A DNA stretch of 27,378 bases from a virus, in IMG/VR virus record IMGVR_UViG_3300044641_007044, positions 1 to 27,378 of that record. One strand, 5' to 3'. Made by a program: the position numbers and the translations under genes. The notes beneath the pieces are model-generated. The model saw only the letters and a list, made by a program, of their open reading frames with translations. It made no database searches and had not been told where the DNA came from. Positions 2,565 to 25,777 of this stretch are shown here, piece after piece (within the stretch, counting starts at the first letter, position 1; every line of letters starts with the position of its first letter).

Positions 2565-5069
2565 TTATTCTGTTTCTACTTTTTCTGCTGAATAACTAAA
2601 GACAAGATTATCATTTTTCTTATCAATTTTAACCTTTATGTTTGAACCATCTTTAGCATTTCCGAGTAGTATTTCTTCTGAAAGAGGATCTTCGAGATAT
2701 TGTTGAATCATTCTACGGAGAGGTCTTGCTCCATATTTATCGTCAAAACCCTTTTCAACCAAAAACTCTTTAGCATTTTTAGGAATTGATAATTTGATAT
2801 TTTTTTCTTCCAAACGCTTTTCAAGTTTGGCAATTTGAATATCAATAATATTAATCATCGATTCCTTATTCAATTTCTTGAAATAAACAATTCCGTCCAA
2901 ACGATTAATAAATTCAGGAGAGAAGTTCAATTTAATCGCACTATCAATAGTTTCTTTAATGTGTGCATCATTACTCTCATCTTTATTGGTTGAGAATCCT
3001 AAACTTCCACCTGCTTTAATGTCTCTTTGACCTACATTTGAAGTCATAATGATAATCGTATTTCGGAAATCAACCTTTCTTCCAAGACCATCTGTCAAAT
3101 GACCATCATCAAACACTTGTAACAATGTATTCAGAGCGTCTGGGTGTGCTTTTTCAACTTCATCTAAAAGAACAACGCTGAATGGTTTTCGTCTTACCTT
3201 TTCAGTTAATTGACCACCTTCTTCATATCCTACATAACCTGGAGGTGCTCCAATCAATTTACTTACGGAGAACTTTTCCATATATTCGGACATATCGACA
3301 CGGATTAAAGATTCTTCGGAGTCAAATAGATGTTTTGCCAAAGTTTTTGCAAGTTCTGTTTTTCCAACACCAGTAGGTCCAGTGAATAGAAATACACCAG
3401 TAGGTCTTGATGGGTCTTTTAACCCTGCTCTTGAACGCTTTACTGATTTAGAGAGGACATCAATCGCTTCATCTTGACCGATAACTCGTTTTTTCAATTC
3501 GTCATTTAATGTTAGCAATCTTTTGGCTTCATCTTGAGAAACTTTGCTTACTGGGATTCCTGTCATAATGGATATAACTTTCGCTACTTCATCTTCAGTA
3601 ACTACTTGTCTTTCTTTATCCATTGATTTTTCCCATTTCTCTTTTAATACATCAGCTTTAGATTGAAGATTTCTTTCTTTATCTCTCAATTCAGCAGCCT
3701 TTTCAAATTTTTGTTCTCTTATAACTGCATTTTTACTTAAACTGATTTCAGAAAGTTCCTTTTCAATTTCTAAAATTTCAGTTGGTATTTTGACATTAGA
3801 CAATCTTACTCTTGCTCCAGATTCATCAAGAACATCAAATGCTTTATCAGGGAAGAATCTATCAGTAATATATCTATCTGCATATTTTACACAAGCAGTA
3901 ACAGCTTCATCAGAATAACTTACTCCGTGATGGCTTTCGTATTTTTCTTTAACACTATTAAGTATTTCAAGTGTTTGTTCTAAAGTTGGAGCATCAACAA
4001 TTATTTTTTGAAATCTTCTATCCAATGCACCATCTTTTTCAATATGTTCTCTATATTCATCAAGTGTAGAAGCACCTATACATTGAACTTCTCCTCTTGC
4101 TAATGCTGGTTTTAACATATTTGCTGCATCAAGAGAACCCGAAGCACCTCCCGCTCCAACAAGAGTATGCAATTCATCTATAAAAAGAATTACATCTTCT
4201 GATTTTTCCAATTCTTGAACGATAGATTTCATACGCTCTTCAAATTGACCTCTATATTTGGTTCCTGCAACCATTGAACCTAAATCAAGAGAAACGACTC
4301 TTTTATTGAATAGTGCTCTTGGAACTTTCTTTTCTACTATTCTTAAAGCAAGTCCTTCAACTATCGCTGTTTTACCTACACCAGGCTCTCCTATTAAAAC
4401 AGGATTATTCTTTTTTCTACGAGCAATAACTTGAACAACTCTTTCTATTTCATTTTCTCTTCCAATTACAGGATCTAACTTTCCTTCAATAGCTAACTTT
4501 GTTAAATCTCTACTGTAAGTGTCTAATACTTGAGTTTTACTTTTAGAATTGCTAGTATTCGACTTACCTTTTTGATATTTAGAACTATATGATGGCTTTG
4601 TATTGCTATTGTCATATAATGCACCGCTATCATCAGAACTAACAAAATTATCAAGTTCTTTTCTAAAAGTCTCATAATTTACATCTTGATTATAAAGACA
4701 TTTTGTTGCCTCATTATCTTCATCTCTCAAAATAGAAAGAATCAAATGCTCACTACCTATTTTTTCAGATTTATAGAGTTTTGATTCTAAATAAGTTACT
4801 TTCAAAACTTTTTCTGCATTTTTAGAAAGTGGAATATTTGTTATAGATATATGTATTGGGGTATCGTTTAGTTCTTTTTCAAGACAATTTTTAAGTTTTT
4901 TAAAGTCAACTTGAAGTGCTTTTAATACATCTACACCTACACCTTCTCCTCTACGAAGAATACCTAATAATAGATGTCCAATATAGATTGTATTATGACC
5001 CAATCGTAATGCTTCTTCTTTAGAATATCTGATTACTTCTTGAAGTCCTGGTGTGAAATTTCCGTCCAT
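2565..5069 (-). CDS. clpC: ClpC-type AAA+ ATPase unfoldase (class I Clp)
   Basis: The product is 834 residues, full length for ClpC. The Clp N-domain double repeat spans about 1-145, followed by a Ser/Lys/Asn-rich linker (about 145-180). D1 has Walker A GEPGVGKT at 227-234 and Walker B LFIDEL near 295-300. The middle domain at about 430-485 holds a UVR-like segment ([15 protein letters not shown]), which marks ClpC and not ClpA or ClpB. D2 has GPTGVGKT at 564-571 and VVLLDEVE at 632-639. The LGF tripeptide at 690-692, in the loop after TSNVGQ, fits the ClpP-docking IGF/VGF loop. ClpC unfolds proteins and feeds them to ClpP, whose gene lies just upstream on the same strand. AAGGA lies before the ATG. 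ClpC normally needs adaptors (MecA-like or phospho-Arg); none is visible here. Confidence 0.95.
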
Positions 5070-5171: not shown

Positions 5172-5750
5172 TTATAGAATTTTATCTATTATACCATATT
5201 TAAGAGCTTCTTCACTTGACATCCAGTTGTCTCTATCTGCATCACTTTTTATCTTTTCCATACTTTGACCTGTATGTTTAGAGATAACACTATAAAGAGA
5301 CTCACGGATTCTAATCATTTCTTTTGTGTAAATTTCAATATCAGATGCTTGTCCTTGTGTACCACCTAATGGTTGATGCATCATTACTCTTGAATGAGGT
5401 AATGCAAATCGTTTTCCTTTTGCACCAGCAGTAAGTAAAACTTGCCCCATAGATGCAGCCATACCTACGCAAATAGTAGATACATCTGGCTTAATATATT
5501 GCATAGTATCATAAATTGCCATACCTGCACTTACGCTACCACCTGGAGAATTAATATAAAGGAATATATCCTTTGTCGGATCTTCGGATTGTAAAAATAG
5601 AAGTTGAGCTATGACAATAGATGATACATCATCATCTATACCAGTTCCTAAAAAAATAATTCGTTCTTTCAATAATCTGGAGAAAATGTCATAAGAACGT
5701 TCTCCTCTTGAACTTTGTTCAATCACATAAGGGATTAAGTGAGATTTCAT
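5172..5750 (-). CDS. clpP: ATP-dependent Clp protease proteolytic subunit ClpP
   Basis: This 192-residue serine peptidase is a true ClpP and not a phage head-maturation relative. The triad is complete: Ser100 in GMAASMGQ, His125 in MMHQP and Asp174 in DRDNWM, with the same spacing as in bacterial ClpP (25 and 49 residues). [18 protein letters not shown] precedes the active site and the product ends in [13 protein letters not shown]. ClpP forms a tetradecameric chamber that degrades proteins unfolded by Clp ATPases; the ClpC gene lies 102 bp downstream on the same strand. The start [20 protein letters not shown] fits the family, whose N-terminal loops gate the pore. The upstream 190-bp divergent gap would hold its promoter, but I see no clear host-type -7 box on this strand. 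Confidence 0.96.
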
Positions 5751-5886: not shown

Positions 5887-5942
5887 TATAGTTATTGTAA
5901 CGCAAATAAGAAAAAAAATTTTAGTATTAACTAATAAAAATT

Positions 5943-6215
5943 ATGAAAAGATACTCGGATGAAGTCGTTGTATTAGAAGCATTTAACACAAGTGACTACA
6001 AAGTTCTTGAAAAATCTTCAAGAAAAGAGATTGGATTTATGTTAAGAAAAGCAAATGCTATGCAAGGTTTTGACTTGCATGCTTTTTTTGAAATACCTAA
6101 TGATGTAAAATTTCCTGATTCAGCAAAAACTATAATGGAGGGTTGGGCAATATTCAATAGAACATTTATTGATAGCCAAATTAATAATCGTCTCCAAAGT
6201 AGAAAATCTCTTTAG
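5943..6215 (+). CDS. Hypothetical protein, 90 aa
   Basis: No family is recognised. The protein is mixed helical with a central MLRKANAMQGFDLHAFFEI segment. It starts about 57 nt after a clear host-type promoter, so it may be expressed early by host RNA polymerase. Its 3' end overlaps the convergent DUF3293-like gene by 35 bp, leaving no room for a terminator between them. Confidence 0.6.
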   Translation: MKRYSDEVVVLEAFNTSDYKVLEKSSRKEIGFMLRKANAMQGFDLHAFFEIPNDVKFPDSAKTIMEGWAIFNRTFIDSQINNRLQSRKSL

Positions 6216-6783
6216 GATTTTTCATTTGTCGAGAATAAACATTAGGCTTATTGAATTTCTTATATTCTTTTGTTTCTTCTTCTTTTTCAACTTTTTCAAA
6301 GAAAGGGATATAGAATTTGCGACCTTTTACCCAAGTATAAAAATCTTCTCGACTTTGAGCATCAATGCCTAAAAATACTTCTTCAACAGTATCAGCAATA
6401 GCACCATCATTATTGATGAAATAGAATTTTATCGTCTTATCATCTACTCTTTCTCCCCATATAACTGATTCTTGATTAAATTGCTGACATAAGTGCATCA
6501 TTAGATTTTTACTTATGTTCGGTATGATTATAGAATTTTCGTAATTACCATACTTTCCAAGAACTTCGTGGAATCCATAATTCTTCTCACGAAGTACGGA
6601 TTTTAGTTTAGATTGCATATAATCGTTATATTCTTTAGATGCTTTTTCACCCATAGGGTTTTCTGCACTCATGATACCAATAGAACTTATTGATTCAACA
6701 TTCCCCTTGATAGCCCTTGCAATTCTTGGAAAATTCGTTTCACTCAAATTATGAAACTCTTGGAATAACTTAATTTTTCCCAT
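6181..6783 (-). CDS. DUF3293-like protein, 200 aa
   Basis: The middle resembles the DUF3293 pattern: GIMSAENPMG, then a stretch of spaced Lys/Leu residues (YMQSKLKSVL), then GKYGNYENSIIIPNI and LCQQFNQESVIWGE. In that family the order is an (S/T)AxNP motif, an N-x-x-L-x-x-x-L helix, an E-x-S segment and FxQxSxIxG. The function of the family is not established as far as I know. The C-terminal 60 residues are charged (KVEKEEETKEYKKF). It is read toward the 5943 gene and overlaps its end. The family link rests on pattern reading only. Confidence 0.6.
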   Translation of the reverse strand: MGKIKLFQEFHNLSETNFPRIARAIKGNVESISSIGIMSAENPMGEKASKEYNDYMQSKLKSVLREKNYGFHEVLGKYGNYENSIIIPNISKNLMMHLCQQFNQESVIWGERVDDKTIKFYFINNDGAIADTVEEVFLGIDAQSREDFYTWVKGRKFYIPFFEKVEKEEETKEYKKFNKPNVYSRQMKNPKEIFYFGDDY

Positions 6784-6870: not shown

Positions 6871-7278
6871 ATGTTTAAAGTTGTTTCTATATGTTGGAGC
6901 GATAGACAGAGAGGTTGGAATATAACCTCTAATGTTTGTAAAATTAAATCTGATAAGAAGAATATTCTTGAAATTTCTGTAAATGGATTTAAGGATAATA
7001 TTTATATTCACAAAAATATATTTGATTTTTTACACATATACTATAAAGCAGATGAAAATGAAAATAATTACACTAATATAGATTGGGCAGCTTATTCTCT
7101 TGAGGAATGTATATTTTTTATACAAAATGATGCTGATTTACATAAAGGTGTATCTTATTTTTATAGAACTTTGGAAAAAATTGAAGAGAATGAAGAACTT
7201 AGAGGTAATAAATTAATTCATTTCATAAATAGAAGTCAGTTATCTCATGGATTCTTTTATTCTTTTTCAAAAAAATAA
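6871..7278 (+). CDS. Hypothetical protein, 135 aa
   Basis: No known domain is seen. The product looks globular and mixed alpha/beta, with aromatic-rich segments (DFLHIYYKA, DWAAYSLEECIFFIQ, YFYRTLEKIEEN). It has no signal peptide or membrane segment. It ends just before the tmRNA promoter, whose TTTG box overlaps the last base of its stop region, so the two loci are tightly packed. Confidence 0.6.
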   Translation: MFKVVSICWSDRQRGWNITSNVCKIKSDKKNILEISVNGFKDNIYIHKNIFDFLHIYYKADENENNYTNIDWAAYSLEECIFFIQNDADLHKGVSYFYRTLEKIEENEELRGNKLIHFINRSQLSHGFFYSFSKK

Positions 7279-7310
7279 TTTGGATAATTCAAAAAGTTTT
7301 ATTATGTTTG
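7279..7310 (+). promoter_or_regulatory. Bacteroidota-type promoter of the tmRNA gene
   Basis: TTTG (7279-7282) and TATGTTTG (7303-7310) are 20 nt apart, matching the -33/-7 consensus of Bacteroidota primary sigma. Transcription would start near 7317, giving a leader of about 40 nt before the mature tmRNA 5' end at 7356, which host RNase P could remove. The spacing is identical to that of the promoter at 5855-5886. Confidence 0.75.
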
Positions 7311-7355: not shown

Positions 7356-7748
7356 GGGGGTGTCATTGGTTTCGATTGGCTTTTGACGCACTAAGAAGCA
7401 ACCCGTGCTGATACTCGGTGGAGCACGATAATACAACTGAGTAAATTATAAGTGGCAATAATAGCACACATATTTTCAACCTTTATCCAATGGTTGAAAG
7501 TACCCAGAATCAATACGCAGTAGCGGCTTGATTCCAAGTGATTTAATTTGTGGCTATTCTCATTATATCACTTGTCGCCTATAATAGCATATACTATAAG
7601 ATGCTTTCGGCTTATAGAGAACTTTAGAAAGCAAAAGAATTATCGGCTGTCCTTTGTCTAAATAATTCTTATTAAAAAAGGACTATGGTTGTAGTGGTCT
7701 AGTAACTTGGAAGTTAAGACAGGGGTTCGACTCCCCTCACCTCCACCA
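7356..7748 (+). ncRNA. ssrA: tmRNA (SsrA), complete, one-piece
   Basis: The ends GGGGGUG and CACCUCC-A-CCA pair as a 7-bp tRNA-like acceptor with G3-U, the alanyl-tRNA synthetase identity pair, and CCA is encoded. The T arm is AGGGG-UUCGACU-CCCCU. Four pseudoknots can be drawn. PK1: CGUGCU/AGCACG (7404-7409, 7422-7427) with UACUC/GAGUA (7412-7416, 7439-7443). PK2: CAAGUGAU/AUCACUUG with GCUAUU/AAUAGC. PK3: AUAAG/CUUAU with UGCUUUC/GAAAGCA. PK4: AAGAAUUAU/AUAAUUCUU with GUCCUUU/AAAGGAC. A helix 2 (GACgCACUA/UAGUGGUC) also forms. The reading frame begins 10 nt after PK1 and ends in YAVAA. It would rescue stalled ribosomes and tag proteins for degradation. No smpB is in the window, so host SmpB or one elsewhere in the genome is needed. 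Confidence 0.95.
7454..7531 (+). other. tmRNA tag reading frame, 25 codons plus stop
   Basis: The resume codon is GGC at 7454, with the upstream U and A at -5 and -4 seen in other tmRNAs and the normal distance from PK1. The peptide begins GNNSTHIFNL and ends QNQYAVAA, followed by UGA. The end matches the degron pattern YAxAA of bacterial tags; the GNN start resembles Bacteroidota tags as I remember them (G-E-x-N-Y-A-L-A-A type). At 25 residues it is much longer than that form. The extra codons hold a 10-bp hairpin (7472-7481 with 7492-7501, one G-U pair, 10-nt loop). Confidence 0.85.
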
Positions 7749-7792: not shown

Positions 7793-8590
7793 ATGAATAT
7801 TACTTATGATGCATCTGCTTATGAATTGCTTAAGATGTTTTCAGAACTTGAATCACACTCTTCTTTTGATAGGTATGCTCCAACTTGGACTCCACGTCTT
7901 TTGAAAATTAAAGAACTATTAGATACTTATAAGATTCCTTATAGGATTAAGCACTATGTAGTACCTGGATATGAGCAAAGATATTTTACTAATTTCTATG
8001 TGTCATTTAATCAGGATAGTGAAGAAGATGGGCTATTATTTTTAGCACATCACGACATTAATAATGAACGCTCTCAAAATTGTCAAGACAATACTGCATC
8101 AATATGTCACTTAATTGCTATGATGAAAACCTTAAAAAATGCAGAACTTTCAAGACCTATTCATTTTGCAATCGTTGATTCAGAAGAACATGTAAATATA
8201 CATTGTTGTGGTAGTCAAGTGTTATCAGAAGATATACATAAAGGTGAATTTGGAAATATAGAAGTTTGTATAAATCTTGAACTTACAGGATTAGGTGAAC
8301 ATATTTGGGTAAGCTCTTTTGAAAAATTCCCTGATAATTGCGAACCTATTATTAAAAAAATAAATGCTCATAAAGTATCAACTCCATATAATGATGCTTA
8401 TGTTTTATCTATGCACGGAGTCCCTGCTATGTGCATTGGTATTTTAGATGATGAAGATATTCAGACGGCAACTATGAGAACAGGCTATCCAAAAATTTGG
8501 GGATTATGTCATAATATGGAAGATACATTTGACAAAATCTCAAAAGAAGATATGAAACTATTTCATAATACACTTTTGTCTCTTTGCTAA
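7793..8590 (+). CDS. M28-like zinc metallopeptidase
   Basis: This 265-residue protein has the M28 ligand series in order: LLFLAHHDIN (His86, Asp88), QDNTAS (Asp99, bridging), VDSEEH (Glu131 base, Glu132 ligand), NLELTG (Glu163 in the place usually held by Asp) and CHNMEDTFDKI (His240). PYNDAYVLSMHGVPAMCI fits the segment before the last His. M28 proteins are aminopeptidases or glutaminyl cyclases. No signal peptide or lipobox is seen, so it is probably cytoplasmic; most M28 enzymes of this type are exported, so that is unusual. It starts 45 nt after the tmRNA and ends 1 nt before the RmlB-like gene, so those two are probably cotranscribed. The substrate is unknown. Confidence 0.8.
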   Translation: MNITYDASAYELLKMFSELESHSSFDRYAPTWTPRLLKIKELLDTYKIPYRIKHYVVPGYEQRYFTNFYVSFNQDSEEDGLLFLAHHDINNERSQNCQDNTASICHLIAMMKTLKNAELSRPIHFAIVDSEEHVNIHCCGSQVLSEDIHKGEFGNIEVCINLELTGLGEHIWVSSFEKFPDNCEPIIKKINAHKVSTPYNDAYVLSMHGVPAMCIGILDDEDIQTATMRTGYPKIWGLCHNMEDTFDKISKEDMKLFHNTLLSLC

Positions 8591-11731: not shown

Positions 11732-12463
11732 ATGACACTCGATGAACTTGTAGAACTCACACAAGATGAATTGACAGTTTCAAGTGGTTTGCCAAATTCT
11801 ATATCCCCAAGAGAAATTGAGCGTATCATAAAAAATGCTGAAAGATGGTTTTATATCAATTATAAATTTGCAGTTGAATCTGATTATTATATCATACCTC
11901 ATTCTTATTTCGGAACTAAAGAATTTACAGATAGAAGATATATTCAGATGCCAGACTGTGTGATGACTATTCAGGATTTTAGAGAAATCCGTGGTGGTTC
12001 AAGAATTGGTATAGTTGACCGAGATATTACAGAAAATAAAATTATAGCATCTGAACTCTTTCTTTCGCCTATTATTGGTGATGATTTGGTATTAAGAACT
12101 GCTCAATATGCTTATTGGGATATAACAAAAGCATACTTTTTGGATACCATCGCTTATTCTTTTAACCCTAATAGCAAAAGAATTAAAGTAACAGGTCGTA
12201 ATCCAAGAACTAGTTCTATTGTTAAATGCTATTCAAAGGTTTCACAAGATAGTCTTTATGATGACGATTTATTTATTAGATGGGTTTTTGCTAAAAGCAA
12301 AATTCAGTTAGGATTTATGTATAGTTTGTATACCTACCAACTCCCATCAGGAGTAACAATAAATGGTAGTCTGTTAAAAGATGCTGGTGAAAGAGAACTT
12401 CAAGAAGTAAAAGAACAGATTGATAAAGAAGCACCACCAAGTTGGTTTATCCAATTTAATTGA
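11732..12463 (+). CDS. Putative virion structural protein, 243 aa (neck/head-completion-like)
   Basis: It is the first gene of the structural cluster. The N-terminus is helical (TLDELVELTQDELTVSS, REIERIIKNAERWFYINYKF) and the rest beta-rich (YIQMPDCVMTIQDFREI, RIKVTGR, SIVKCYSKV) before a C-terminal helix. Neck or head-completion proteins of T4-like phages (gp13 type) have a comparable helical-then-beta layout, but I see no diagnostic motif, so the role rests mainly on location. A RATATATA element and terminator precede it. The following gene starts 37 nt after its stop. Confidence 0.5.
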   Translation: MTLDELVELTQDELTVSSGLPNSISPREIERIIKNAERWFYINYKFAVESDYYIIPHSYFGTKEFTDRRYIQMPDCVMTIQDFREIRGGSRIGIVDRDITENKIIASELFLSPIIGDDLVLRTAQYAYWDITKAYFLDTIAYSFNPNSKRIKVTGRNPRTSSIVKCYSKVSQDSLYDDDLFIRWVFAKSKIQLGFMYSLYTYQLPSGVTINGSLLKDAGERELQEVKEQIDKEAPPSWFIQFN

Positions 12464-12478
12464 TGTAAAATATCAAGG

Positions 12479-12485
12479 ATATATA
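12479..12485 (+). promoter_or_regulatory. ATATATA element before the DUF3008-like gene
   Basis: GGATATATAA lies 15 nt before the ATG at 12501, closer than usual. It may be a secondary promoter. Confidence 0.3.
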
Positions 12486-12500
12486 AAAAAAATCAAAATT

Positions 12501-13067
12501 ATGCCTGCAAAATCTCAAGCTCAATTAAATCTAATGAGACTAGCCCTCGCTTATAAGAAAGGTTATATTAAAAGCGAGGAAGTATCTCAAGATGTTAAAG
12601 ATATTGCCAAATCAATGACTTATAAAGAATTGGAAGATTATGTTAAAACCCCGAAAGGAAAGAAACTTCCAAAACATGTTGATGAGCAATTTTCAACTTT
12701 AAGTTCTACACCTGGAATGGGTGCTGTTACTCCACCAACTGCAACATCTGCTGGAAGTGGAGATGTGTTTAATGCTTATGGAGTGTTTACTCAAGGTTTT
12801 CTCAAAAAGGCTAAAAAAGATAGAAAGGCAAAGAAAACCGATCCAATGAAGCATTATCATCCTGAAAAAGGTATAACCCATTTCCAACCTCATGGAACAA
12901 TTCTGCATTTTGAAGATTTTATTAAAAACCTTCAATTAAAAAATCACGATCAATTTAGCGATCATAATGATACAAAGGATAGTGAAGGTAGCATAACTTC
13001 TATGGGTCGCTACGAAGCACCATTTACTCTTGATGGTAGTATGGATGGTGGAGATGGTGGCGAATAA
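12501..13067 (+). CDS. DUF3008-like phage protein, 188 aa
   Basis: The start MPAKSQAQLNLMRLALAYKK, followed by VKDIAKSMTYKELEDYVKTP and KGKKLPKHV, follows the pattern of the small DUF3008 family found in phages (PAKS-Q-x-x-M, an AKSM helix, then K-x-LP-x-HV). The C-terminal part is longer than in that family and carries Gly/Thr/Pro-rich linker and HYHPEKGITHFQPHG. I use ATG 12501; the longer frame from 12420 would run into the upstream gene and adds residues before the conserved start. Its function is unknown; a virion-associated role is inferred from position. Confidence 0.65.
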   Translation: MPAKSQAQLNLMRLALAYKKGYIKSEEVSQDVKDIAKSMTYKELEDYVKTPKGKKLPKHVDEQFSTLSSTPGMGAVTPPTATSAGSGDVFNAYGVFTQGFLKKAKKDRKAKKTDPMKHYHPEKGITHFQPHGTILHFEDFIKNLQLKNHDQFSDHNDTKDSEGSITSMGRYEAPFTLDGSMDGGDGGE

Positions 13068-13085
13068 AGTAACAAAAAGTAATTT

Positions 13086-16000
13086 ATGGTATACGCAGCA
13101 GATGCTTTTTTAAGAAAATTTTTAGGGATATCAAGTGTTAGAGACCCAGGTATTCTTAATAATTATAATTATGAAGACCCTACATATCCTATATTTCATT
13201 TGAAGTTTGAATTTGTTCCAAGAGATTCAAAACATCCTGATTATGTATCTAATAGACTTTTAACAAGTGGTCCTGAATCTGCTGTTCAATTTCTTTATTC
13301 TGTTGGAGAACCTGAAAGAGCAAGAATGATGGAAAAATTCATCGAAATGCTCAAATCAATTAGTGAAAAAACTCCATGGTATTTTCAAAGTGTAGATGGT
13401 TTAGGAAGTTTATATTCTCAAGGATATCCATCAAAATTTTCCTCTAGAGGAGGATCAGAAGCAACTATTACTATTAAAACTCTTGAAAGTATAGATTATA
13501 AAATCCACGCTTTGAAGGATTTATATCGTAAGGCCGCATACGATAGGAAATATAGAAGATGGATTTTACCAATTAATATGCGTAGATTTAGAATGAGCAT
13601 TTTAATTGGAGATTTCAGACAACTTGCAGTCACAGAAGACAATTACTCTATAAATCCAAGACAAGCACTTGATGCTTTAAGAGATATAGATGTTTTCAAT
13701 GGTAGTAATATTGGTGGTAAACTATTAGGTAGAGTTAATGATGGTGCTCTTTCTTTCGTAAAACGACTACAATGGTGGGACAATCATTATTCATGCCTAT
13801 TATTTGATTGTCAAGATTGTGAATTTGATATGTACAATAGTTCTAGTATTTCAAATCTTAGTCATTCAAATATAAAAGCATTTGACTCTGAATTTACTAT
13901 AAATATCGGTAGAGTTTTAGAAACAAACACATATAGTTTGTTAAAATATGCTTTAAGTGATAATCTTTTAGAAAACCTTTTAAAATCTAGTGATGAAAAT
14001 GGAGTAGCAAAATTATCAGAAAATTTGAAGAATGTTGCTAAACCTATACTTCCTTCTTGGAAAGAATTTCAAAATCTTGAAAGAGAGAAAGGTGATAATA
14101 AGCGTGTTATTTTAGAAGATAATGGTTTTGGAAATGTTTTGGGTGCTGGTATTAGCGAAGGTGTGAGTGCTTTACCATTTGGAATAGGTGGGGTATTATC
14201 AGGTGGAACAACTAGTGATGGATTTTTAGGTTCAGTAGGTGATTTCTTTGGAGATACAGCATCTGAACTTGCTCAAGAAGCATTAAGTATGGCTACTGAA
14301 AATATAGCAAAAAATGTTTACGGAAACGAACTATATCGTTCCGCAGCTGGAGTAGGGTTAGGTATATTAAATGGTGACTTGAATCAAGTTGCTCAAAACT
14401 TTTCAAATCCTGCTTTGGCTGGTGCATTAGGTATTAATGTTGAAACATCAGGAAGACCTACTCCTCCTAATTTAAGAGATGGTATTCCTTCTAATATTCA
14501 ACTATCCGCTCCAAGTGTTCAACGTTCTTTAAGTGATGTTCAAGCAAATTTAACAGGAGAAGGATCTGATCCTAGATTCCAAGCTATCGGTAGACCTGGA
14601 CAAAGTTTATTCTTAAATCCTGATCCTTTAAATAAATTATTTGACCAAAAAAATATAGAACTTGAAAAGCCAAGAGTAGAAACAACAATGCCTGATAATG
14701 TTGAATTTTCAGAAGTTCGGAAAGAAACAAAACTAAATCCAATAAAAGAAAATCTGACTGGCTCCACTCCTAAAACTTCGTTTGATGAAACGAATGCTAA
14801 TTTACAAGGAGCTGGAAAGAAAACAGATTTAACACCAAGTAATGCTGATTTAACAGGGGCACAACCTTTAAAGGATTTAGTTCCAAGTAATGCTGATTTA
14901 ACAGGGGCACAACCTTTAAAGGATTTAGTTCCAAGTAATGCTGATTTAACAGGGGCACAACCTCTAAAGGATTTAGTTCCAAGTAATGCTGATTTAACAG
15001 GGGCACAACCTTTAAAGGACTTAGTTCCAAATCAAGCCAATTTACAAGGAGCACAACCTTTAAAGGATTTAGTTCCAAGTAATGCTGATTTGACAGGAGC
15101 AGAAGCTCTAAAGGATTTGATTCCAAGTAATGCTAATTTAGTAGGTACATCTTCTCTAAATAGATTTAATAACAATAATGTATCTTTAACTGGTAATGAA
15201 TCTTTAAAAGAATTAAACCCTTCAGGTATTGATTTAGTTGGAGCATCACCTCAAACATCTTTTAATTCTCAAAAAGAAAATCTTATATCTCCAAATGTTG
15301 CTACATCTTTTGAAAGTCCAAATGTAGATTTAGTTGGAATTTCTCCGATTCGCTCTTTTGATGAAAAAACTATTGATTTAGCATCACCTTCTATACAAAG
15401 AACATTGACAGAAACGAATGCTAATTTAGAAGGGAATACCCCTGTAAATAAAATGGATGCTAATATTGAACTCGAAGGTTCTTCTCCACAAAGAGATTTA
15501 ATAGAAACTAATGCCAATTTACAAGGATTTACTACTCGTCCTAATAATAATTTGGGTGTTGAGACACTTGAAGGTAAAGAACCTATGAGAAATTTTTCAT
15601 CTCCTAATGTTGGTAATATGACATCAACACAATCTGATGTTAAAGATTTAGGAAAAGAAACTTTATTAGGAGCAAATCCACTTCGTGATTTAACTGAAAC
15701 AAATGTAAAACTTCAAGGTAGTGTTCCTCAAACTAATATTTCTACTCAAAATGTTGAACTAAAAGGTGTTCAAAATTCTATAACTATGCAAAAGAATGTA
15801 GAATTATCTGGTAAAACACCACAAACTTCTATGGATAAAAACGTAAATTTACAAGGAAGTGAAGTTAATTCAACATCTTTTGGTAATGTTAATTTAACAG
15901 GACAAGGAAGTAAAGGATCATTTGATGTGAAAAATGTTGAATTACAAGGTTCTTCTCCTTTAACTAATACTCCATTGAAAAATATAGGATTAGTAGAAAA

Positions 16001-16151
16001 GCCTACAATAGGAGTTATAAGAAATCAATCTACACAAACTAAAATAGAATTAGAAGGTTCTACAAATAGAAATACAATTCAAACTAGAATTGAATTGGAA
16101 GAACCTAATATTAATAATACAGCAAGTCCTAAAAATATAGGATTGAGGTAA
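13086..16151 (+). CDS. Large baseplate/tail protein with 16-residue repeats, 1021 aa
   Basis: Residues about 1-300 look like a tail or baseplate structural domain: RYRRWILPINMRRF-like core (RKYRRWILPINMRRFRMSIL), LLFDCQDCEFDMYNSSSISN and FDSEFTINIGRVLETNTYSL. This resembles T4-type tail-tube/baseplate tube-cap proteins (gp48/gp54 group), though only by pattern. About 300-470 is Gly-rich and helical. From about 470 to the end the protein is built of degenerate 16-residue repeats with a core like NADLTGAQPLKDLVPS, almost perfect in the middle (see the 48-bp array). No membrane segment is seen. The gene starts 18 nt after the DUF3008-like gene and precedes the gp5-like spike gene. Confidence 0.75.
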   Translation: MVYAADAFLRKFLGISSVRDPGILNNYNYEDPTYPIFHLKFEFVPRDSKHPDYVSNRLLTSGPESAVQFLYSVGEPERARMMEKFIEMLKSISEKTPWYFQSVDGLGSLYSQGYPSKFSSRGGSEATITIKTLESIDYKIHALKDLYRKAAYDRKYRRWILPINMRRFRMSILIGDFRQLAVTEDNYSINPRQALDALRDIDVFNGSNIGGKLLGRVNDGALSFVKRLQWWDNHYSCLLFDCQDCEFDMYNSSSISNLSHSNIKAFDSEFTINIGRVLETNTYSLLKYALSDNLLENLLKSSDENGVAKLSENLKNVAKPILPSWKEFQNLEREKGDNKRVILEDNGFGNVLGAGISEGVSALPFGIGGVLSGGTTSDGFLGSVGDFFGDTASELAQEALSMATENIAKNVYGNELYRSAAGVGLGILNGDLNQVAQNFSNPALAGALGINVETSGRPTPPNLRDGIPSNIQLSAPSVQRSLSDVQANLTGEGSDPRFQAIGRPGQSLFLNPDPLNKLFDQKNIELEKPRVETTMPDNVEFSEVRKETKLNPIKENLTGSTPKTSFDETNANLQGAGKKTDLTPSNADLTGAQPLKDLVPSNADLTGAQPLKDLVPSNADLTGAQPLKDLVPSNADLTGAQPLKDLVPNQANLQGAQPLKDLVPSNADLTGAEALKDLIPSNANLVGTSSLNRFNNNNVSLTGNESLKELNPSGIDLVGASPQTSFNSQKENLISPNVATSFESPNVDLVGISPIRSFDEKTIDLASPSIQRTLTETNANLEGNTPVNKMDANIELEGSSPQRDLIETNANLQGFTTRPNNNLGVETLEGKEPMRNFSSPNVGNMTSTQSDVKDLGKETLLGANPLRDLTETNVKLQGSVPQTNISTQNVELKGVQNSITMQKNVELSGKTPQTSMDKNVNLQGSEVNSTSFGNVNLTGQGSKGSFDVKNVELQGSSPLTNTPLKNIGLVEKPTIGVIRNQSTQTKIELEGSTNRNTIQTRIELEEPNINNTASPKNIGLR
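14835..15170 (+). repeat. Seven tandem 48-bp units in the large tail gene
   Basis: Units begin at 14835, 14883, 14931, 14979, 15027, 15075 and 15123, exactly 48 bp apart, each encoding 16 residues (core ADLTGAQPLKDLVPSN). The first four are nearly identical at the nucleotide level, which suggests recent expansion; later units diverge and continue as degenerate 16-mers to the end of the protein. Confidence 0.95.
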
Positions 16152-16186
16152 TATTTAGATAAAATTTTCAAGTTATATTTTTTTTG

Positions 16187-16193
16187 ATATATA
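16187..16193 (+). promoter_or_regulatory. ATATATA element directly before the gp5-like gene
   Basis: TTGATATATAGG lies only 6 nt before the ATG at 16200. If it works like the other copies as a -10-type element, the transcript would be nearly leaderless. Confidence 0.3.
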
Positions 16194-16199
16194 GGACTT

Positions 16200-16949
16200 A
16201 TGGAAAGAACTCAAACTTATTTTGGAAAAGTTGTGATTAACGATGATCCTGAAAGGATAGGTCGTTGCAAAATTCGGATTTTAGGTGTGTTCGATGAACT
16301 ACTTGATGAAGAATTACCATGGGCATTTCCTGCTTATAATACGACATTTGCAGGCGGTGAATCTAAGGGGTTTGGTTCTATAAGTATTCCTAAAATTGAT
16401 ACGATAGTTAGGGTTAAATTTGAGAATGGAGATTCTTATAGTCCTGTTTATTGGAGCATCCCAATAGCAAATCAGGCAATGAGTGCTGAATTAGATGCTT
16501 CGTACTTGAATTCACATGTCGTTACTTATGATGAAGATGAGAAGATGAAACTCCTCTATAGTCCATCAATTGGTCTTAAATACCACTTAAATGGCTCACA
16601 TTTAACGATAAATCCAGATAAGTCTATAACGATAGAACATGACGCTACGCAGTCTGTAATCGAATTAAACGGCTCAAATATAACTATTGTAGCAAATAAT
16701 AAGATAGAAGCAACTGCTCCTACTAAAATTGAAATTAATAGTTCTAATGTCCATGTAAATGGCGTAAAGACTGAATTGGGTGCAGCACCTGTATTTTCTA
16801 ATATATGTGCAGAACCATTGTGGGTATTTCTAAAAGCACTCGCTGCTGCAACAGATGCTAAGTGGCCACCTTCACCAGGTGTGTTGACTAGTCTCGCTGC
16901 AACGGCAGAGGTTGCAAGTACATCAAAAACAGTAAAAACTTCACTCTAA
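16200..16949 (+). CDS. Baseplate central spike protein (gp5/gpV OB-fold type)
   Basis: The first about 95 residues form the OB-fold domain of T4 gp5 and baseplate assembly protein V: FGKVVINDDPERIGRCKIRI, LPWAFPAYN, SISIPKIDTIVRVKFENGD and SPVYWS. After a linker, a stretch from about 125 to 200 has short repeating strands (SHLTINPDKSITIEHD, VIELNGSNITIVANN, PTKIEINSSNVHVNG), typical of the triple-stranded beta-helix that extends the spike. The C-terminus is Ala/Ser-rich. No lysozyme domain is inserted, unlike T4 gp5. The protein would be the membrane-piercing device at the centre of the contractile-tail baseplate. Confidence 0.88.
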   Translation: MERTQTYFGKVVINDDPERIGRCKIRILGVFDELLDEELPWAFPAYNTTFAGGESKGFGSISIPKIDTIVRVKFENGDSYSPVYWSIPIANQAMSAELDASYLNSHVVTYDEDEKMKLLYSPSIGLKYHLNGSHLTINPDKSITIEHDATQSVIELNGSNITIVANNKIEATAPTKIEINSSNVHVNGVKTELGAAPVFSNICAEPLWVFLKALAAATDAKWPPSPGVLTSLAATAEVASTSKTVKTSL

Positions 16950-16950
16950 A

Positions 16951-19900
16951 ATGGCAAAATCTTTACTTCAAATATCAAACTATGCATTAGTAGAATTAGA
17001 TTACGATGTAACAACTATATCTACAAATACTCAGTCTTTTTTGTTAATAGATTCTTCTTATACAAATGAAAGACAGATATTAAATGTAACCAAAGGAAAT
17101 AATCCTACTTCTAATATTTTAGATAGATCTGCCGTTAGATTAACTGATATAAGGTCTTGGGCACATTTAGACCAAGATAGAGCCATTCCATATAATGTAT
17201 ATGATGCTTCAAATCTTTCTCAAGAACTTTTAGGGAATTTAACTTCTACGCAATGGCCAGTTGAATATGAAACTTTAAAACTTCATCTTTTATCAGGATA
17301 TAATTTAGAAGATTTAGATGGTTTGCTTTTGAGTGTTGAATATCCTGAGGTTTCAGGTAAAAAATGTACAATAGCTCAAATAGCATATTTAAAGGGCGAT
17401 GAATATATTAAATTCAATGCTCGTCCTATAGTAATTGCAGGAAGAAGTTATGATAGATATATTGAAGTTTTAATCCCTTCCCTTTTCTATTTGAATGAAG
17501 AGTATTACTCTAATCCCACAAGCGGAGCTTTAGCATATTGGTTATCCTCTGATAATCAAGGTTTTGAAAAGAATGGTCTAATTTCTATTACTCTTAGAGA
17601 AATTTCTACAAGTAATGATAATGGAACTGTTCTTAGTTTAACTACTGGGAATGTTACCGATGTTACCTATAAACAACAAGATTCTTTTAGTCTTCTTAAT
17701 GCAGTAATTGTTGAGAATGATGAAGAAGATTGTTTTGAATATTATCCTTCATGGCAAGGTGGTTTCGTTGAAGATTTAGTCACTAATCTTAATGGTATTG
17801 GTGGAGACTATTATGTTTTCCACGAATTGTATATTTACGAGCAAGTAGGTTTTAGTCAAGTTCAGAGTGATTATTTTGTATCTATACAGGAAGGAGACTT
17901 TAATGCTCCAAAAAGATTTAGACCCATCTTGAAAAATGCAGATTCTGCATATTCCTTTAGTATAGATTATGTGATGAGACTTACTGATAAAGATACAGGT
18001 TCACAAATTGTGAGAACTGCATCAGTAACTTCTTTTGAACCAAAACGCTATGGCAGAAAAATTGAAAAGGTTAATTTAAATACCGATGTACGTTCTTTTA
18101 AGATTTATAATAAAATTATAGAAGAGACTAAACTTCAAGTTAATAAATCTAATATAGAAAAGAAGATTGAAAAACTATACACTCCTACATTTTTTGATTT
18201 TAATGAAATTGCTGTAAATACATCTAATGTTATTTTAAAAAGTGACGGAACATTTACAACGGAATCTGTTTGGAATTGGGATGTTATTTTCGGTCAAGGT
18301 GAAGCAATTCTTCTCATTCACCCTTATGAGAATTATGTCAAATTCAAAATGCATAGATATTTAGAGGGAAATCAAACAACAAGTCTTGATTTACGATATG
18401 ATGTTGATTTATTCCTTGTAATAGAATATGATAATAAAAGAGTTAAATTCTCAAAAATAGAAGGGTTTTACTCTACTAATTTAGCAGAAGGTGAAGTTAT
18501 TTTTAAAATACCTGCAAAAGAAGCATCCAATATTTATGCTATCGAAAAGGGTATTTTTTACATCACATCAAAAGTACCTTCCTTTATAAAAGTAAAAGTT
18601 AGCGATACTTATGTTGGAGCAGTAGCAAATAAAGAATTTAATATTATTTCAAAAGAATATTATTCAAAAGGGGATACAGATAATTTTGAATTGATTTTTG
18701 ATGGTGTAAGTTACTTTGTAGCTAAAAGTATGCTTCAAGTTATTCAAGTTATTCCAACTGGTTCAGGTGTAAGTGAAACAACGCTTTATACAGGTAAATG
18801 GAGAAGAATGGAAGATGCTGATAAAGTTAAAGATGATATTGAAAATATAAGAAAAGCTGAATTAGAAAGAATTCTTAATAAGATTCGTACTGGGCAATTA
18901 TCTCTTAATTCAAGACAATCTGAATTGGATCAAAGAGCGTCTGAATTGTTGGCACTTGAAGCAAGATTAAATGCTCAAAAACTTGCTCAAACAAATCAAT
19001 CCAATTTACTTAATACATTACAGAATGATGTCAATAGTCGTGAAAAAATTCTCAATCAAAGAGAAAGAGATTTAAGAGATCAAGCTAAAAAAGCAGCTGA
19101 GGCAGAAAATGCTAATATAGCTGCATTTCAAGACCAACTTAATAAAATATTAAAATCTATTGAAGATTTAGAAAATGCGACACCTACAGATACAGGAACT
19201 GGAAACCAAGGTAATCAAGGAACTGGTAATCAAGGAACTGGTAATCAAGGTACGGGCAATCAAGGAACTGGTAATCAAGGTACAGGCAATCAAGGAACTG
19301 GTAATCAAGGAACTGGTAATCAAGGTAACCAAGGAACTGGTACACAAGGAACACAAGGAACACAAGGGAGTAGAGTTAGAGCATCTGATATTTTGAATAG
19401 AAACATTGGTATAAATAATAATAACAATGTGACTATTACAAATTTAGCAAGTAAAATTAATTATGTAGATTTCGCAGGTAAATCAGGTAATGATTTAGGC
19501 GTATTGCCATCAACTGGCTTTAACCCAATAACTATTGATGCTGGACTAGATACTTCAAAGAAAGGTTTCCAACTTGCTGGATCGGGTTCTTCAGTTGGTA
19601 CTAATGCTAATTCAAATGTTAATGCAACACTGAATAGACTGATAGGTGGTACAACAAATACAGCAAGTGGAAATAATAATTTTTCAGATCCACAATATAA
19701 TCTTACTCCTATTGCTAGAGAAAGAAATAGAAATGTAAGAAATAATACAGGATCTAATTCAGGTACAGGTACTAACCCACCTTCTGAAAACACGGACAAA
19801 ATTGTATACGGTAAAGTTATTGATTGGGATAGTCAAGTAAGAAATGAATTAACTTTTAAGAATTTATCAAACGGAACAACTGAATCGTTCTATAAATTTA

Positions 19901-20271
19901 CACCATTTACATACGATGGTTTTAAGACAAATAATAGAAGAGTTATTGTTCAAGTAGATACAATTCAGTATTTAGTAGTAGGTGATATTATTTATTCACA
20001 ATTAACTGAAAAAGGACAATCTCTTTTGAGTGGGGGTAATAATACTTTTGATATTAGATATGTTAAAATAGAAATTAAAAACATCATTGCACCAAATTTA
20101 GTAGAAGGTGTGTATCTAATGACAGATACAGGTGGAATAGGAAGCAATCGATTTTTGAACATAAAAACTAATCCTTATGAACAAAGACATAAATGGGATA
20201 TAATAAAGAAAGCTGTTCCAGGTGGTACTGGTGGTGGTGGTGGCAATAGTGGCACAAGAATACCATTATAA
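16951..20271 (+). CDS. Large virion structural protein with coiled coil and GNQGT repeats, 1106 aa
   Basis: Residues about 1-620 are beta-rich and Asn/Ser/Thr-rich with no recognised family; the neighbourhood suggests a baseplate or fibre-associated protein. About 625-745 is a long charged coiled coil (RKAELERILNKIRTGQLSLN, QKLAQTNQSNLLNTLQND, REKILNQRERDLRDQAKKAA). About 750-805 is a pentapeptide repeat (GTGNQ/GNQGT) forming a flexible linker. The last about 300 residues hold Asn/Thr-rich sequence and a more ordered C-terminal domain (DKIVYGKVIDWDSQVRNELT onward) before a Gly-rich end. It starts 1 nt after the spike gene stop, so they are translationally coupled. Confidence 0.7.
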   Translation: MAKSLLQISNYALVELDYDVTTISTNTQSFLLIDSSYTNERQILNVTKGNNPTSNILDRSAVRLTDIRSWAHLDQDRAIPYNVYDASNLSQELLGNLTSTQWPVEYETLKLHLLSGYNLEDLDGLLLSVEYPEVSGKKCTIAQIAYLKGDEYIKFNARPIVIAGRSYDRYIEVLIPSLFYLNEEYYSNPTSGALAYWLSSDNQGFEKNGLISITLREISTSNDNGTVLSLTTGNVTDVTYKQQDSFSLLNAVIVENDEEDCFEYYPSWQGGFVEDLVTNLNGIGGDYYVFHELYIYEQVGFSQVQSDYFVSIQEGDFNAPKRFRPILKNADSAYSFSIDYVMRLTDKDTGSQIVRTASVTSFEPKRYGRKIEKVNLNTDVRSFKIYNKIIEETKLQVNKSNIEKKIEKLYTPTFFDFNEIAVNTSNVILKSDGTFTTESVWNWDVIFGQGEAILLIHPYENYVKFKMHRYLEGNQTTSLDLRYDVDLFLVIEYDNKRVKFSKIEGFYSTNLAEGEVIFKIPAKEASNIYAIEKGIFYITSKVPSFIKVKVSDTYVGAVANKEFNIISKEYYSKGDTDNFELIFDGVSYFVAKSMLQVIQVIPTGSGVSETTLYTGKWRRMEDADKVKDDIENIRKAELERILNKIRTGQLSLNSRQSELDQRASELLALEARLNAQKLAQTNQSNLLNTLQNDVNSREKILNQRERDLRDQAKKAAEAENANIAAFQDQLNKILKSIEDLENATPTDTGTGNQGNQGTGNQGTGNQGTGNQGTGNQGTGNQGTGNQGTGNQGNQGTGTQGTQGTQGSRVRASDILNRNIGINNNNNVTITNLASKINYVDFAGKSGNDLGVLPSTGFNPITIDAGLDTSKKGFQLAGSGSSVGTNANSNVNATLNRLIGGTTNTASGNNNFSDPQYNLTPIARERNRNVRNNTGSNSGTGTNPPSENTDKIVYGKVIDWDSQVRNELTFKNLSNGTTESFYKFTPFTYDGFKTNNRRVIVQVDTIQYLVVGDIIYSQLTEKGQSLLSGGNNTFDIRYVKIEIKNIIAPNLVEGVYLMTDTGGIGSNRFLNIKTNPYEQRHKWDIIKKAVPGGTGGGGGNSGTRIPL
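19194..19368 (+). repeat. 15-bp tandem repeats encoding GTGNQ units
   Basis: GGAACTGGTAATCAA-type 15-bp units repeat about ten times with synonymous changes (GGTACGGGCAATCAA, GGTACAGGCAATCAA). A few end as GTQ units (ACACAAGGAACACAAGG). The frame is kept throughout, so it is a protein linker and not a DNA site. Confidence 0.9.
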
Positions 20272-20285
20272 CATTCTTATAGATT

Positions 20286-20831
20286 ATGATATTAAATGCT
20301 AGACAAAATTTATTTGACTTCAGATTCCCAAAAGGATTCTTCTTTCCACAAATTGAAGAAAAATATAGGGCATATATTAGAGCTCTGCCTTTACCTATAG
20401 ATAATGTTTCAGATTTCATTAATCATACCATACAATCATTTCGTTTGCCTGAAATAAGTGTTCCTTCAAGTGAACAATATTTGAGTGCTAGAAAGACTAT
20501 TTGGAGAGGACATTTACCTCAACATTTACTTACAAATCAAAAATTTACAGTAACCTTCAAATTAACAGAGGGATACATAAATTACTTTATTCTTTACGAC
20601 CAATTACGATTGTTTTTAGAATACGATAATGAGATTGAATACCTACCGACTTGTAGATTAAGACTCTTGGATTATGGTGGAAGGGAGTTTGTTGCCATTA
20701 AATTACAACAAATTACTATGACCACTATGAGCACTTTAGAATTGAGTTATACATCTGCTTTACCCCAACAAACCTCATTTAATTGTGATTTTACTTTCAA
20801 TATTTTCGAATTATTGAAGGAAAATCAATAA
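20286..20831 (+). CDS. Tail-tube/baseplate-tube-like protein, 181 aa
   Basis: The product has features of the tail-tube fold family of T4-like phages (gp19/gp48/gp54 type): a start RFPKGFFFPQIEEKYRAYIR, then INHTIQSFRLPEISVPSSEQ, then FTVTFKLTEGYINYFILYDQ and a long beta-rich end (VAIKLQQITMTTMSTLELSY). The motif "f-x-V-t-f-k-x-x-x-G-x-i-N-Y-f-i" is what I rely on. It starts 14 nt after the large structural gene, with no terminator between. Whether it is the main tube or a baseplate initiator cannot be told from the sequence alone. Confidence 0.55.
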   Translation: MILNARQNLFDFRFPKGFFFPQIEEKYRAYIRALPLPIDNVSDFINHTIQSFRLPEISVPSSEQYLSARKTIWRGHLPQHLLTNQKFTVTFKLTEGYINYFILYDQLRLFLEYDNEIEYLPTCRLRLLDYGGREFVAIKLQQITMTTMSTLELSYTSALPQQTSFNCDFTFNIFELLKENQ

Positions 20832-20846
20832 TTTTTCTTATCTTTG
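20814..20846 (+). promoter_or_regulatory. Bacteroidota-type promoter before the exonuclease gene
   Basis: TATCTTTG (20839-20846) matches the -7 box TAnnTTTG, and TTG at 20814-20816 lies 22 nt before it. Transcription would start about 30 nt before the ATG at 20884. Confidence 0.6.
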
Positions 20847-20883
20847 TAGTATAATTAGTTTTTAATACTATAAGGATGTGTTT

Positions 20884-21594
20884 ATGCAAACGCTAAATTA
20901 TGTGCAAAATTGTTTATTTTTTGATATTGAAACTACAGTTAGGCACAACACTTTTGCCGAATATCAAGAGAATGAATCAGAAGTGGCAAATATTTGGTTA
21001 GACAAATGTAAAATGAACGATGCCTATAAGAATGAGCCCGAATCTATGCTTGAAAAATATGGCTCTCTATATCCTGAATATGGCAAGATTATTTGCATAT
21101 CTTATGGATATTTTGATGTAGATACAAAAAAGTGGAAGGTTGAATCTTTGAATGATTCTACAATGAGTGAAAAAGAAATGCTTATGGAATTTGGAAAATT
21201 ATGTAATACAAAGTTTCATAAACATATTTTATCAGGATATAATATAAAGCGATTTGATATACCTTATGTCTATCGTAGAATGCTTGCAAATCATATTTTA
21301 CCACCATCTCATTTTGATGTTATTGATAAAAAGCCTTGGGAAATTGCTGCATATGATTTGTATAGAGTTTGGACTGATGCCTATACTATAAATGGTATGT
21401 GTAATTTTGATGTAGTTTGTCAATTAATGGGCGTACCTTCTCCGAAGCAAGGTGAAGTCAAAGGTGAAAGCGTTAAGGAATTTTATTATGATGGAAAAAT
21501 TGATGAGATTACTGAATATTGTAGAAGAGATGTTCAGGCATCAATTAGATTGGCTTTATTATGGACTATTGAAAAATTAACAGAGCCAGTATAA
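20884..21594 (+). CDS. 3'-5' exonuclease of the PolB exonuclease-domain type (DnaQ-like)
   Basis: The 236-residue product has the three exonuclease motifs: FFDIETT near the N-terminus (ExoI, Asp and Glu), GYNIKRFDIPYVYRRML (ExoII, Asp) and EYCRRDVQASIRL near the end (ExoIII, with the last Asp). This is the layout of the predicted stand-alone exonucleases related to the PolB proofreading domain (PF10108 type); no polymerase domain follows. It would remove nucleotides 3' to 5' in phage DNA replication or repair. I take the ATG at 20884, with AAGGA 7 nt before it; GTG at 20878 is the only other option. Confidence 0.85.
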   Translation: MQTLNYVQNCLFFDIETTVRHNTFAEYQENESEVANIWLDKCKMNDAYKNEPESMLEKYGSLYPEYGKIICISYGYFDVDTKKWKVESLNDSTMSEKEMLMEFGKLCNTKFHKHILSGYNIKRFDIPYVYRRMLANHILPPSHFDVIDKKPWEIAAYDLYRVWTDAYTINGMCNFDVVCQLMGVPSPKQGEVKGESVKEFYYDGKIDEITEYCRRDVQASIRLALLWTIEKLTEPV

Positions 21595-21614
21595 TTTACA
21601 ATCCATATCAAAAT

Positions 21615-21641
21615 AAAAGGGCAGATTATTTCTGCCCTTTT
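21615..21641. terminator. Bidirectional terminator between convergent genes
   Basis: An 11-bp perfect stem AAAAGGGCAGA / TCTGCCCTTTT with a 5-nt loop is flanked by T on the right and A on the left. It lies between the exonuclease gene and the minus-strand 21645 gene. Confidence 0.93.
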
Positions 21642-21644
21642 TTG

Positions 21645-22460
21645 TTATACTAACTCTTGAGTGATTTCATCAAATAATTCTTTGAAATTTGGTATTTCAG
21701 GATAACCAGCAAAATCCCAAATTTTAGAAAGTTCTCTCTTTTTACAAGTTTTAAGAACATTATTAATGGGAACTATCGAAGATGATCTTTCAATATATCC
21801 TTTTGCATTTTTAGACCATGCTATGTAATGCAATAACTCATATTCAGTCTGTGTATTATTTGGAATAATATGATATGTATCTGCTTTTAATTCTGCATGA
21901 TTATCAATAATTCCTTCTATTATTTTATTGGCAGCATTATTCGTTATTAAAGAGTATTTTTTATCAATTTCTCCATAATATACTTTACCTTCGGAAAATT
22001 CTCTATTTAATAATTCATCGTCAAAAACATCAAATCTTAAATTCCATGTTCTATCACTCTTTTGTTCTCCAATAGAGATTGATTTTGAAAAATAATTTTC
22101 AGGAGAGTGTTTATCTATTTCAGAAGAATTGTTCCAATTATCATTCCCAAAAACACTACCTTTTGTAATATGTATAAATTTCAAATTTGGATATTTATTA
22201 TGGAGATATAATGGGAGGTAAGCATTGAACATTAACATATTCTCTTGACTATCACTTTCTAATTGAGCATCAAAGATAAACCATTCTATATCTTTATGTT
22301 TTGAAATGGTATCTTCAATTAAATGAATTGTAAATTCAATAAATGAATTAGAAGAATCAGAATTTTTATATTCTTTATCTTTCAAACCAAGCATAATTAT
22401 AGAGTTCTTAATAACTCGTTCTTCATTATTAGTTAAGAGAAAAGAGGTAGCGGTTTTCAT
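21645..22460 (-). CDS. RmlD-like protein, probably without NAD-binding and catalytic motifs
   Basis: The segment YLPLYLHNKYPNLKFIHITK followed by GSVFGNDNW, then DKHSPENYFSKSISIGEQ and NLRFDVF, follows the RmlD/extended-SDR order (P-x-L-a, K-f-I-h-i-S-T-d-x-V-F, E-x-D-x-x-P-x-n-x-Y-x-x-S-K, G-E, l-R). The N-terminus lacks a GxxGxxG Rossmann loop, and the YxxxK pair is replaced by YFSKS, with Lys at +3 and not +4. It is therefore likely a non-catalytic or altered relative of dTDP-4-dehydrorhamnose reductase. AAGGA lies before the ATG. It is possibly linked with the RmlB-like gene at 8592, though 12 kb away. The assignment is pattern-based. Confidence 0.5.
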   Translation of the reverse strand: MKTATSFLLTNNEERVIKNSIIMLGLKDKEYKNSDSSNSFIEFTIHLIEDTISKHKDIEWFIFDAQLESDSQENMLMFNAYLPLYLHNKYPNLKFIHITKGSVFGNDNWNNSSEIDKHSPENYFSKSISIGEQKSDRTWNLRFDVFDDELLNREFSEGKVYYGEIDKKYSLITNNAANKIIEGIIDNHAELKADTYHIIPNNTQTEYELLHYIAWSKNAKGYIERSSSIVPINNVLKTCKKRELSKIWDFAGYPEIPNFKELFDEITQELV

Positions 22461-22509
22461 TAAAAAATCCTTAATAAATCTATTTGTATTCTAATACAAT
22501 ATAAGAAAT

Positions 22510-23208: not shown

Positions 23209-23240
23209 AATTATTTCCTAAATTATAAAATTATAGAATT

Positions 23241-25214: not shown

Positions 25215-25240
25215 GTAGTTATCGTTAATTATTATCTTGG

Positions 25241-25247
25241 TATATAT
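25241..25247 (-). promoter_or_regulatory. Candidate phage promoter element (GGAATATATACC)
   Basis: On the minus strand ATATATA lies 26 nt before the start at 25214. GGAATATATACCAAG contains the same core as the plus-strand copies, so the element is strand-specific and used by a minus-strand structural gene too. Confidence 0.4.
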
Positions 25248-25302
25248 TCCAATTTTAGAAAGGAAAAAGCAAGATTTGAAATTAAAACGAAATAGTCCTT
25301 AT

Positions 25303-25761: not shown

Positions 25762-25777
25762 ATTTTTTTGTTTATTT

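Follow-up and report, generated by a model that had tools for sequence, protein, structure and literature searches.

For two decades, catalogues of phage genes have included tmRNAs, whose function is still not settled. Mycobacteriophages and phage G have them (PMC4131195), huge phages carry them together with SmpB (Al-Shayeb et al. 2020, PMC7162821), and earlier papers name Clp genes alongside tmRNA in one phage (PMC11242549; PMC13120357). Most phages lack the gene, as the first-pass annotation of our locus had stated: 402 of 18,146 phage genomes, about 2%, carry one (PMC9004378). Among the long-known cases, the mycobacteriophage Bxz1 group and Bacillus phage G (PMC4131195), phage G is complete and has no smpB; its clpP lies at 187.8 kb and its tmRNA at 412 kb, and its tag has 13 residues. 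The Sinorhizobium jumbo phage AP-J-162 combines a tmRNA with six Clp-like ORFs (PMC11242549), but no link between them was reported and its host belongs to another phylum. The Chryseobacterium phage MA9V-3 (PV245944; PMC13120357) has a Bacteroidota host, and its tmRNA is separated from a Clp gene by about 4 kb; this Clp gene is, however, clpX, we found no clpP match in the phage, and its tmRNA (L332 2767–3125) is permuted according to ARAGORN, with a tag of 17 residues, GNVIDINKYVAKLEVAA, whereas tmRNAs of Bacteroidota hosts are one-piece. The Lak phages and the uncultured huge phage LR756500 resemble our locus in having a large-phage tmRNA; Lak-A1 differs in that its clpP is 56 kb from the tmRNA and in having smpB, and LR756500 in its 10-residue tag. 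The main text of PMC7162821 does not mention Clp, and in the open-access literature we found no report of clpP–tmRNA linkage or of long phage tags, the novelty of both being provisional.

The locus studied here lies in an IMG/VR virus contig, all 27,378 bases of which were analysed (the window). ARAGORN reports a single tmRNA, a one-piece ssrA gene at 7356–7748 on the plus strand with the tag GNNSTHIFNLYPMVESTQNQYAVAA followed by a stop, and the Rfam model RF00023 agrees on these bounds, matching over model positions 1–374 with 138.3 bits (E 2e-54; gathering score 47). The features that the first-pass annotation had read from the letters of the gene largely held up: the acceptor ends match in seven of seven pairs, the G3–U pair (7358 with 7742) is invariant in relatives, the T arm is present and shows one compensatory change among relatives, all four pseudoknots can be drawn in the window sequence, and the resume codon, GGC, stands at the normal distance, 11 nt past the helix of pseudoknot 1 (PK1). 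In E. coli tmRNA, 11 nt likewise separate the PK1 helix from the resume codon. The encoded CCA fared differently, being present in the window but reading CAA in six of six relatives; we therefore rejected it as a maintained feature, and in the relatives CCA is presumably added by enzyme. With its covariance-model match, tRNA-like domain, PK1 followed by resume codon and tag frame, and PK2–PK4, the gene belongs to the one-piece tmRNAs (RF00023) and is predicted to give a functional phage tmRNA that would be charged and would tag.

To follow the fold through the clade, we built a manual fold model comprising the acceptor stem, part of helix 2, the T arm and the four pseudoknots, and tallied its pairs on an alignment of seven relatives, five of them distinct. 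Pairing is possible in 96.6% of the alignment cells, and 16 of the 94 pairs show two-sided compensatory changes among the five distinct relatives, a number reached in none of 500 shuffles, with slid versions of the fold giving 0–1. The compensatory support is located in PK2 (7536–7588, both stems), PK3 (7594–7633, stem 1), PK4 (7635–7683, both stems) and the T arm. PK1 (7404–7442) is almost invariant and can form in every relative; the acceptor stem and the G3–U pair form in all five distinct sequences. These patterns indicate that the tmRNA structure is maintained by selection. They also bear on the idea that the tmRNA acts against the host, either competing for SmpB or diverting host proteins for amino-acid recycling. 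Such roles have been considered for other phages, the tmRNA of phage DS6A, which consists of the tRNA-like domain only, being discussed as a possible SmpB titrator (PMC4131195) and selective tagging of host proteins being proposed for phage Melnitz (PMC9004378). Here, however, the mRNA part, the tag frame, the stop codon and the pseudoknots are all kept, with compensatory changes, and would be needless for a mere decoy; we regard an anti-host role as improbable.

A host ssrA on a fragment of bacterial chromosome, or an attachment-site remnant, would be a simpler source for the gene, as ssrA often serves as an integration site and the tmRNA is similar to Bacteroidota ssrA. The surroundings contradict this. 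Downstream, at 11732–27097, PHROG and Pfam searches identify phage structural and replication genes (head-tail adaptor, baseplate, tail tube, head closure and a DnaB-like helicase), and most structural proteins are 82–94% identical between relatives. The tmRNA locus recurs in six further phage contigs of up to 79.6 kb, and the tmRNAs of the clade share 87–92% identity with one another but no more than 67% with the sampled bacterial tmRNAs. The gene is complete and sits inside a phage gene cluster in a virus record, and no integrase was found among the proteins scanned. On gene content and relatives we rejected the host-chromosome reading, and a prophage or island attachment copy as well, and we give the two together hardly any weight. 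The closest named phages of the helicase are the Lak phages and LR756500, and the locus probably belongs to a large, T4-like phage.

The promoter reported by the first-pass annotation is real and is conserved in every relative, but is of the Bacteroidota sigma-A type: a sigma-70 scan found no site upstream of the gene, and the sequence TTTG-N20-TATGTTTG at 7279–7310 (plus strand), 45 nt upstream of the tmRNA, follows the pattern TTTG-N20-TAnnTTTG, TAnnTTTG being the consensus of the Bacteroidota sigma-A −7 box (PMC9723704). Every relative has TTTG, 19–20 bases and TAnnTTTG or a close variant, 8 to 45 bases before the gene. Shine–Dalgarno-like sites are scarce, found at 6 of 24 genes and mostly as a four-base match. 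The clpC-like gene described below tells the same: its product scores 941–1142 bits against the ClpC of 40 sampled Bacteroidota genomes but does not exceed 877 bits against Bacillota ClpC, is 56–62% identical to most Bacteroidota ClpC, and in a FastTree phylogeny falls beside Bacteroidota sequences and away from other viral ClpCs. Because of the conserved promoter type, the scarcity of Shine–Dalgarno sites and the ClpC kinship, the host is likely a member of Bacteroidota. In another phage, L051, whose ClpC groups with Bacillota, a tmRNA with the tag EAEYIFNNADEILAGAEEFSLAA (3259–3722) borders a tRNA array and is 4.3 kb away from clpC.

The Bacteroidota chromosomal ssrA genes (e.g., L228, with the tag GESNYALAA) resemble the phage gene in being one-piece, in their ends and in the initial G and the end N(x)YA-x-AA of the tag, with identities of up to 67%, but they differ in tag length. 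The tags of the window clade (GNNSTHIFNLYPMVESTQNQYAVAA and variants) have 24–25 residues and end in (Q)YA[V/I]AA, whereas those of 48 Bacteroidota tmRNAs with canonical tags have 9–10. Aligned to the latter, the phage tag reads like a host-type G-N-N...N-Q-Y-A-V-A-A with an extra stretch that folds into a hairpin (7473–7500), missing from Bacteroidota tmRNAs and conserved in the clade with one-sided changes only. A helix 5-like hairpin at 7507–7534, taken from the drawn fold and the relatives' alignment, contains the final tag codons and the stop. The frame as a whole (7454–7531, plus strand, stop included) survives a 3-nt indel in relatives. In the middle of the tag, nonsynonymous and synonymous rates are about equal and there is no clear amino-acid constraint; as amino acids there vary freely and synonymous sites change little, RNA structure may partly explain the conservation. 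The other phage tmRNAs encountered here, which do not adjoin clpP, have shorter tags, of 10, 13, 10, 17, 21 and 23 residues.

The tmRNA has protease genes for neighbors. A clpP gene on the minus strand (5172–5750) encodes a Clp protease subunit with a PF00574 domain (1.6e-86) and the Ser-His-Asp triad, which aligns with the catalytic residues of solved ClpP structures (PDB). It is followed on the same strand by a clpC-like AAA+ unfoldase gene (2565–5069), whose product matches Pfam, has Clp_N, two ATPase modules, UVR and an LGF loop for ClpP, and aligns to Bacillus subtilis ClpC structures at the Walker motifs and the (LIV)GF loop. With dN of 0.04–0.13 against dS of 1.8 or more for clpP, and about 0.2 against 1.3 or more for clpC, both genes are under purifying selection, with their active sites intact. 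Directly upstream of the tmRNA is a 135-aa ORF (6871–7278, plus strand) without Pfam or PHROG match, present wherever a clade contig covers this position, and downstream an M28 peptidase gene (7793–8590, plus strand; PF04389, 5.7e-12). The order clpP, small ORF, tmRNA, M28 peptidase is kept in every clade contig reaching the place, and clpP and tmRNA occur together in all that span the region (the window, G002, G003, G044, G045 and L210), while other genes between clpP and the peptidase vary. One relative alone, L003, has a gene for an ankyrin-repeat-like protein (5888–6562) between tmRNA and clpP. Within the clade, clpP and tmRNA point away from each other across 1.6 kb and therefore do not form one transcript.

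Of 80 viral clpC loci, just 4 include a clpP at a distance of up to 8 kb, and three of these 4 belong to the window clade. In an ARAGORN scan of 80 viral loci with bacterial-type ClpP, the tmRNAs within 3 kb all belonged to the clade, the other ~75 loci having none, though divergent tmRNAs can escape ARAGORN. Named phages with similar ClpP (LR745206, LR756502, Lak-B5 and XaC1) have no tmRNA within 4 kb of clpP. The first-pass annotation had proposed that the phage keeps trans-translation running, perhaps because host mRNA is degraded in infection and many ribosomes stall. This proposal stands insofar as the locus is a phage's and the tmRNA is maintained by selection, but the clpP–clpC neighbors and the long tag had been overlooked, and because the neighbors are conserved and the tag unusually long, they suggest that the phage carries a degradation arm as well as ribosome rescue.

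Starting from clpC-bearing virus records, which we searched for tmRNA and ClpP, we identified a second family with the same pairing. The huge phages G037, G038, G040 and G041 have clpP followed directly by tmRNA, and in G017 the two are 600 nt apart; the ClpPs of these phages are only 38–45% identical to that of the window. We surveyed 80 viral loci with huge-phage-type ClpP, and in 45 of these a tmRNA that reaches the Rfam cut-off lies no more than 2 kb from clpP. The tmRNA was downstream of clpP on the same strand in all 45, with a median gap of 304 nt and a gap within 700 nt in 40. An additional huge-phage locus, L451, has a tmRNA of 44.4 bits. As the 45 loci share ancestry, they represent one linkage event and not 45, and this event is independent of that in the window clade. 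Tags were read from the frame after PK1, two loci having no clear tag. The family has 32 distinct tags of 25–26 residues with the pattern [DG]N-x-F-x-[VI]-x-ENFL...GE[VL]A-x-A, e.g., DNDFIVSENFLDEA...GELAVA. The 380-kb virus record G017 contains two different tmRNA genes (82619–82990 and 327939–328335), of which one adjoins clpP and the other, elsewhere, has a 21-residue tag.

Searches for the partner gene smpB gave no match in the window and nine clade records, all of them fragments, and none next to clpP in the surveyed phage loci. Bacillus phage G and Enterococcus phage 21C1, both complete tmRNA phages, have no smpB, so borrowing of host SmpB is plausible and is the simplest reading for our clade; Lak-A1 carries both genes, and across 42 clpC-bearing records tmRNA and smpB did not clearly travel together. 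In the huge phage G026 (121965–122372 and 123283–123846) the gene close to clpP, about 1 kb away and on its strand, is smpB and not tmRNA.

The explanation that fits best, and which we hold with moderate confidence, is ribosome rescue by the phage using host SmpB, possibly feeding the tagged proteins to the phage's own ClpCP. In this picture the phage is a large one of lytic type that infects a member of Bacteroidota, and the tmRNA gene would be read from a host-type promoter of its own. Processing by RNase P, CCA addition by the CCA-adding enzyme, charging with alanine by AlaRS and loading by EF-Tu and SmpB would presumably all fall to the host. The tmRNA would then rescue ribosomes stalled in infection and append the 24–25-residue tag, and the tagged fragments would be destroyed, probably at least partly, by the ClpC–ClpP encoded 1.6 kb away. 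The last step is proposed because of the gene linkage, its independent recurrence and the selection on clpP. Alternatively, the tmRNA could only top up host rescue, with tagged proteins going to host ClpXP and the phage clpC and clpP serving unrelated roles, e.g., degrading host regulators or defence proteins or aiding capsid maturation. The host-like tag end would fit this, as would the tmRNA of phage 21C1, which comes without a ClpP match, and the many phage clpP loci without tmRNA. It would leave unexplained, however, why the adjacency is conserved in the window clade, why clpP and tmRNA were paired independently in a second family and why the tags are far longer than those of the likely host, and we consider it unlikely, if still a serious competitor. 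Under rescue combined with phage ClpCP, the virus may come equipped with a complete pathway for tagging and destroying proteins. We extend this only tentatively, as a possibility short of probable, to the claim that large phages at least twice built their own tag-and-degrade pathway, consisting of a clpP-linked ssrA, a phage-specific degron of ~25 residues and a turnover separate from the host's. The protease linkage in two unrelated lineages and the unusually long tags nevertheless give a concrete hypothesis, that phages may provide the tag as well as the protease that destroys what it marks. If true, protein quality control would join the host processes taken over by large phages, and such phages would be a source of new degron–protease pairs.

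Some other proteins of these phages have features of their own. The window encodes, at 6181–6783 on the minus strand, a protein matching DUF3293 and the S-adenosylmethionine (SAM) lyase family, and a SAM synthetase gene is present in the related contig G002 (79.6 kb); one relative possibly has a SAM-degrading anti-restriction enzyme and another a SAM producer. Many unrelated proteins, the 6181–6783 protein among them, have in common an N-terminal motif (e.g., MKYIKLFEQWELN, MGNVLKFEDYVLNE or MGKIKLFQEFHNLSE) that recalls the capsid-targeting sequences of T4. We observed it further in L003 (1732–2634, 15031–15921 and 15927–16208) and at several sites each in G002 and L004, and by analogy these proteins may be packaged in the head. 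In the tail region of the window, two large proteins (13086–16151 and 16951–20271) contain tandem LTGAQPLKDLVPSNAD-like and GNQGT-like repeats.
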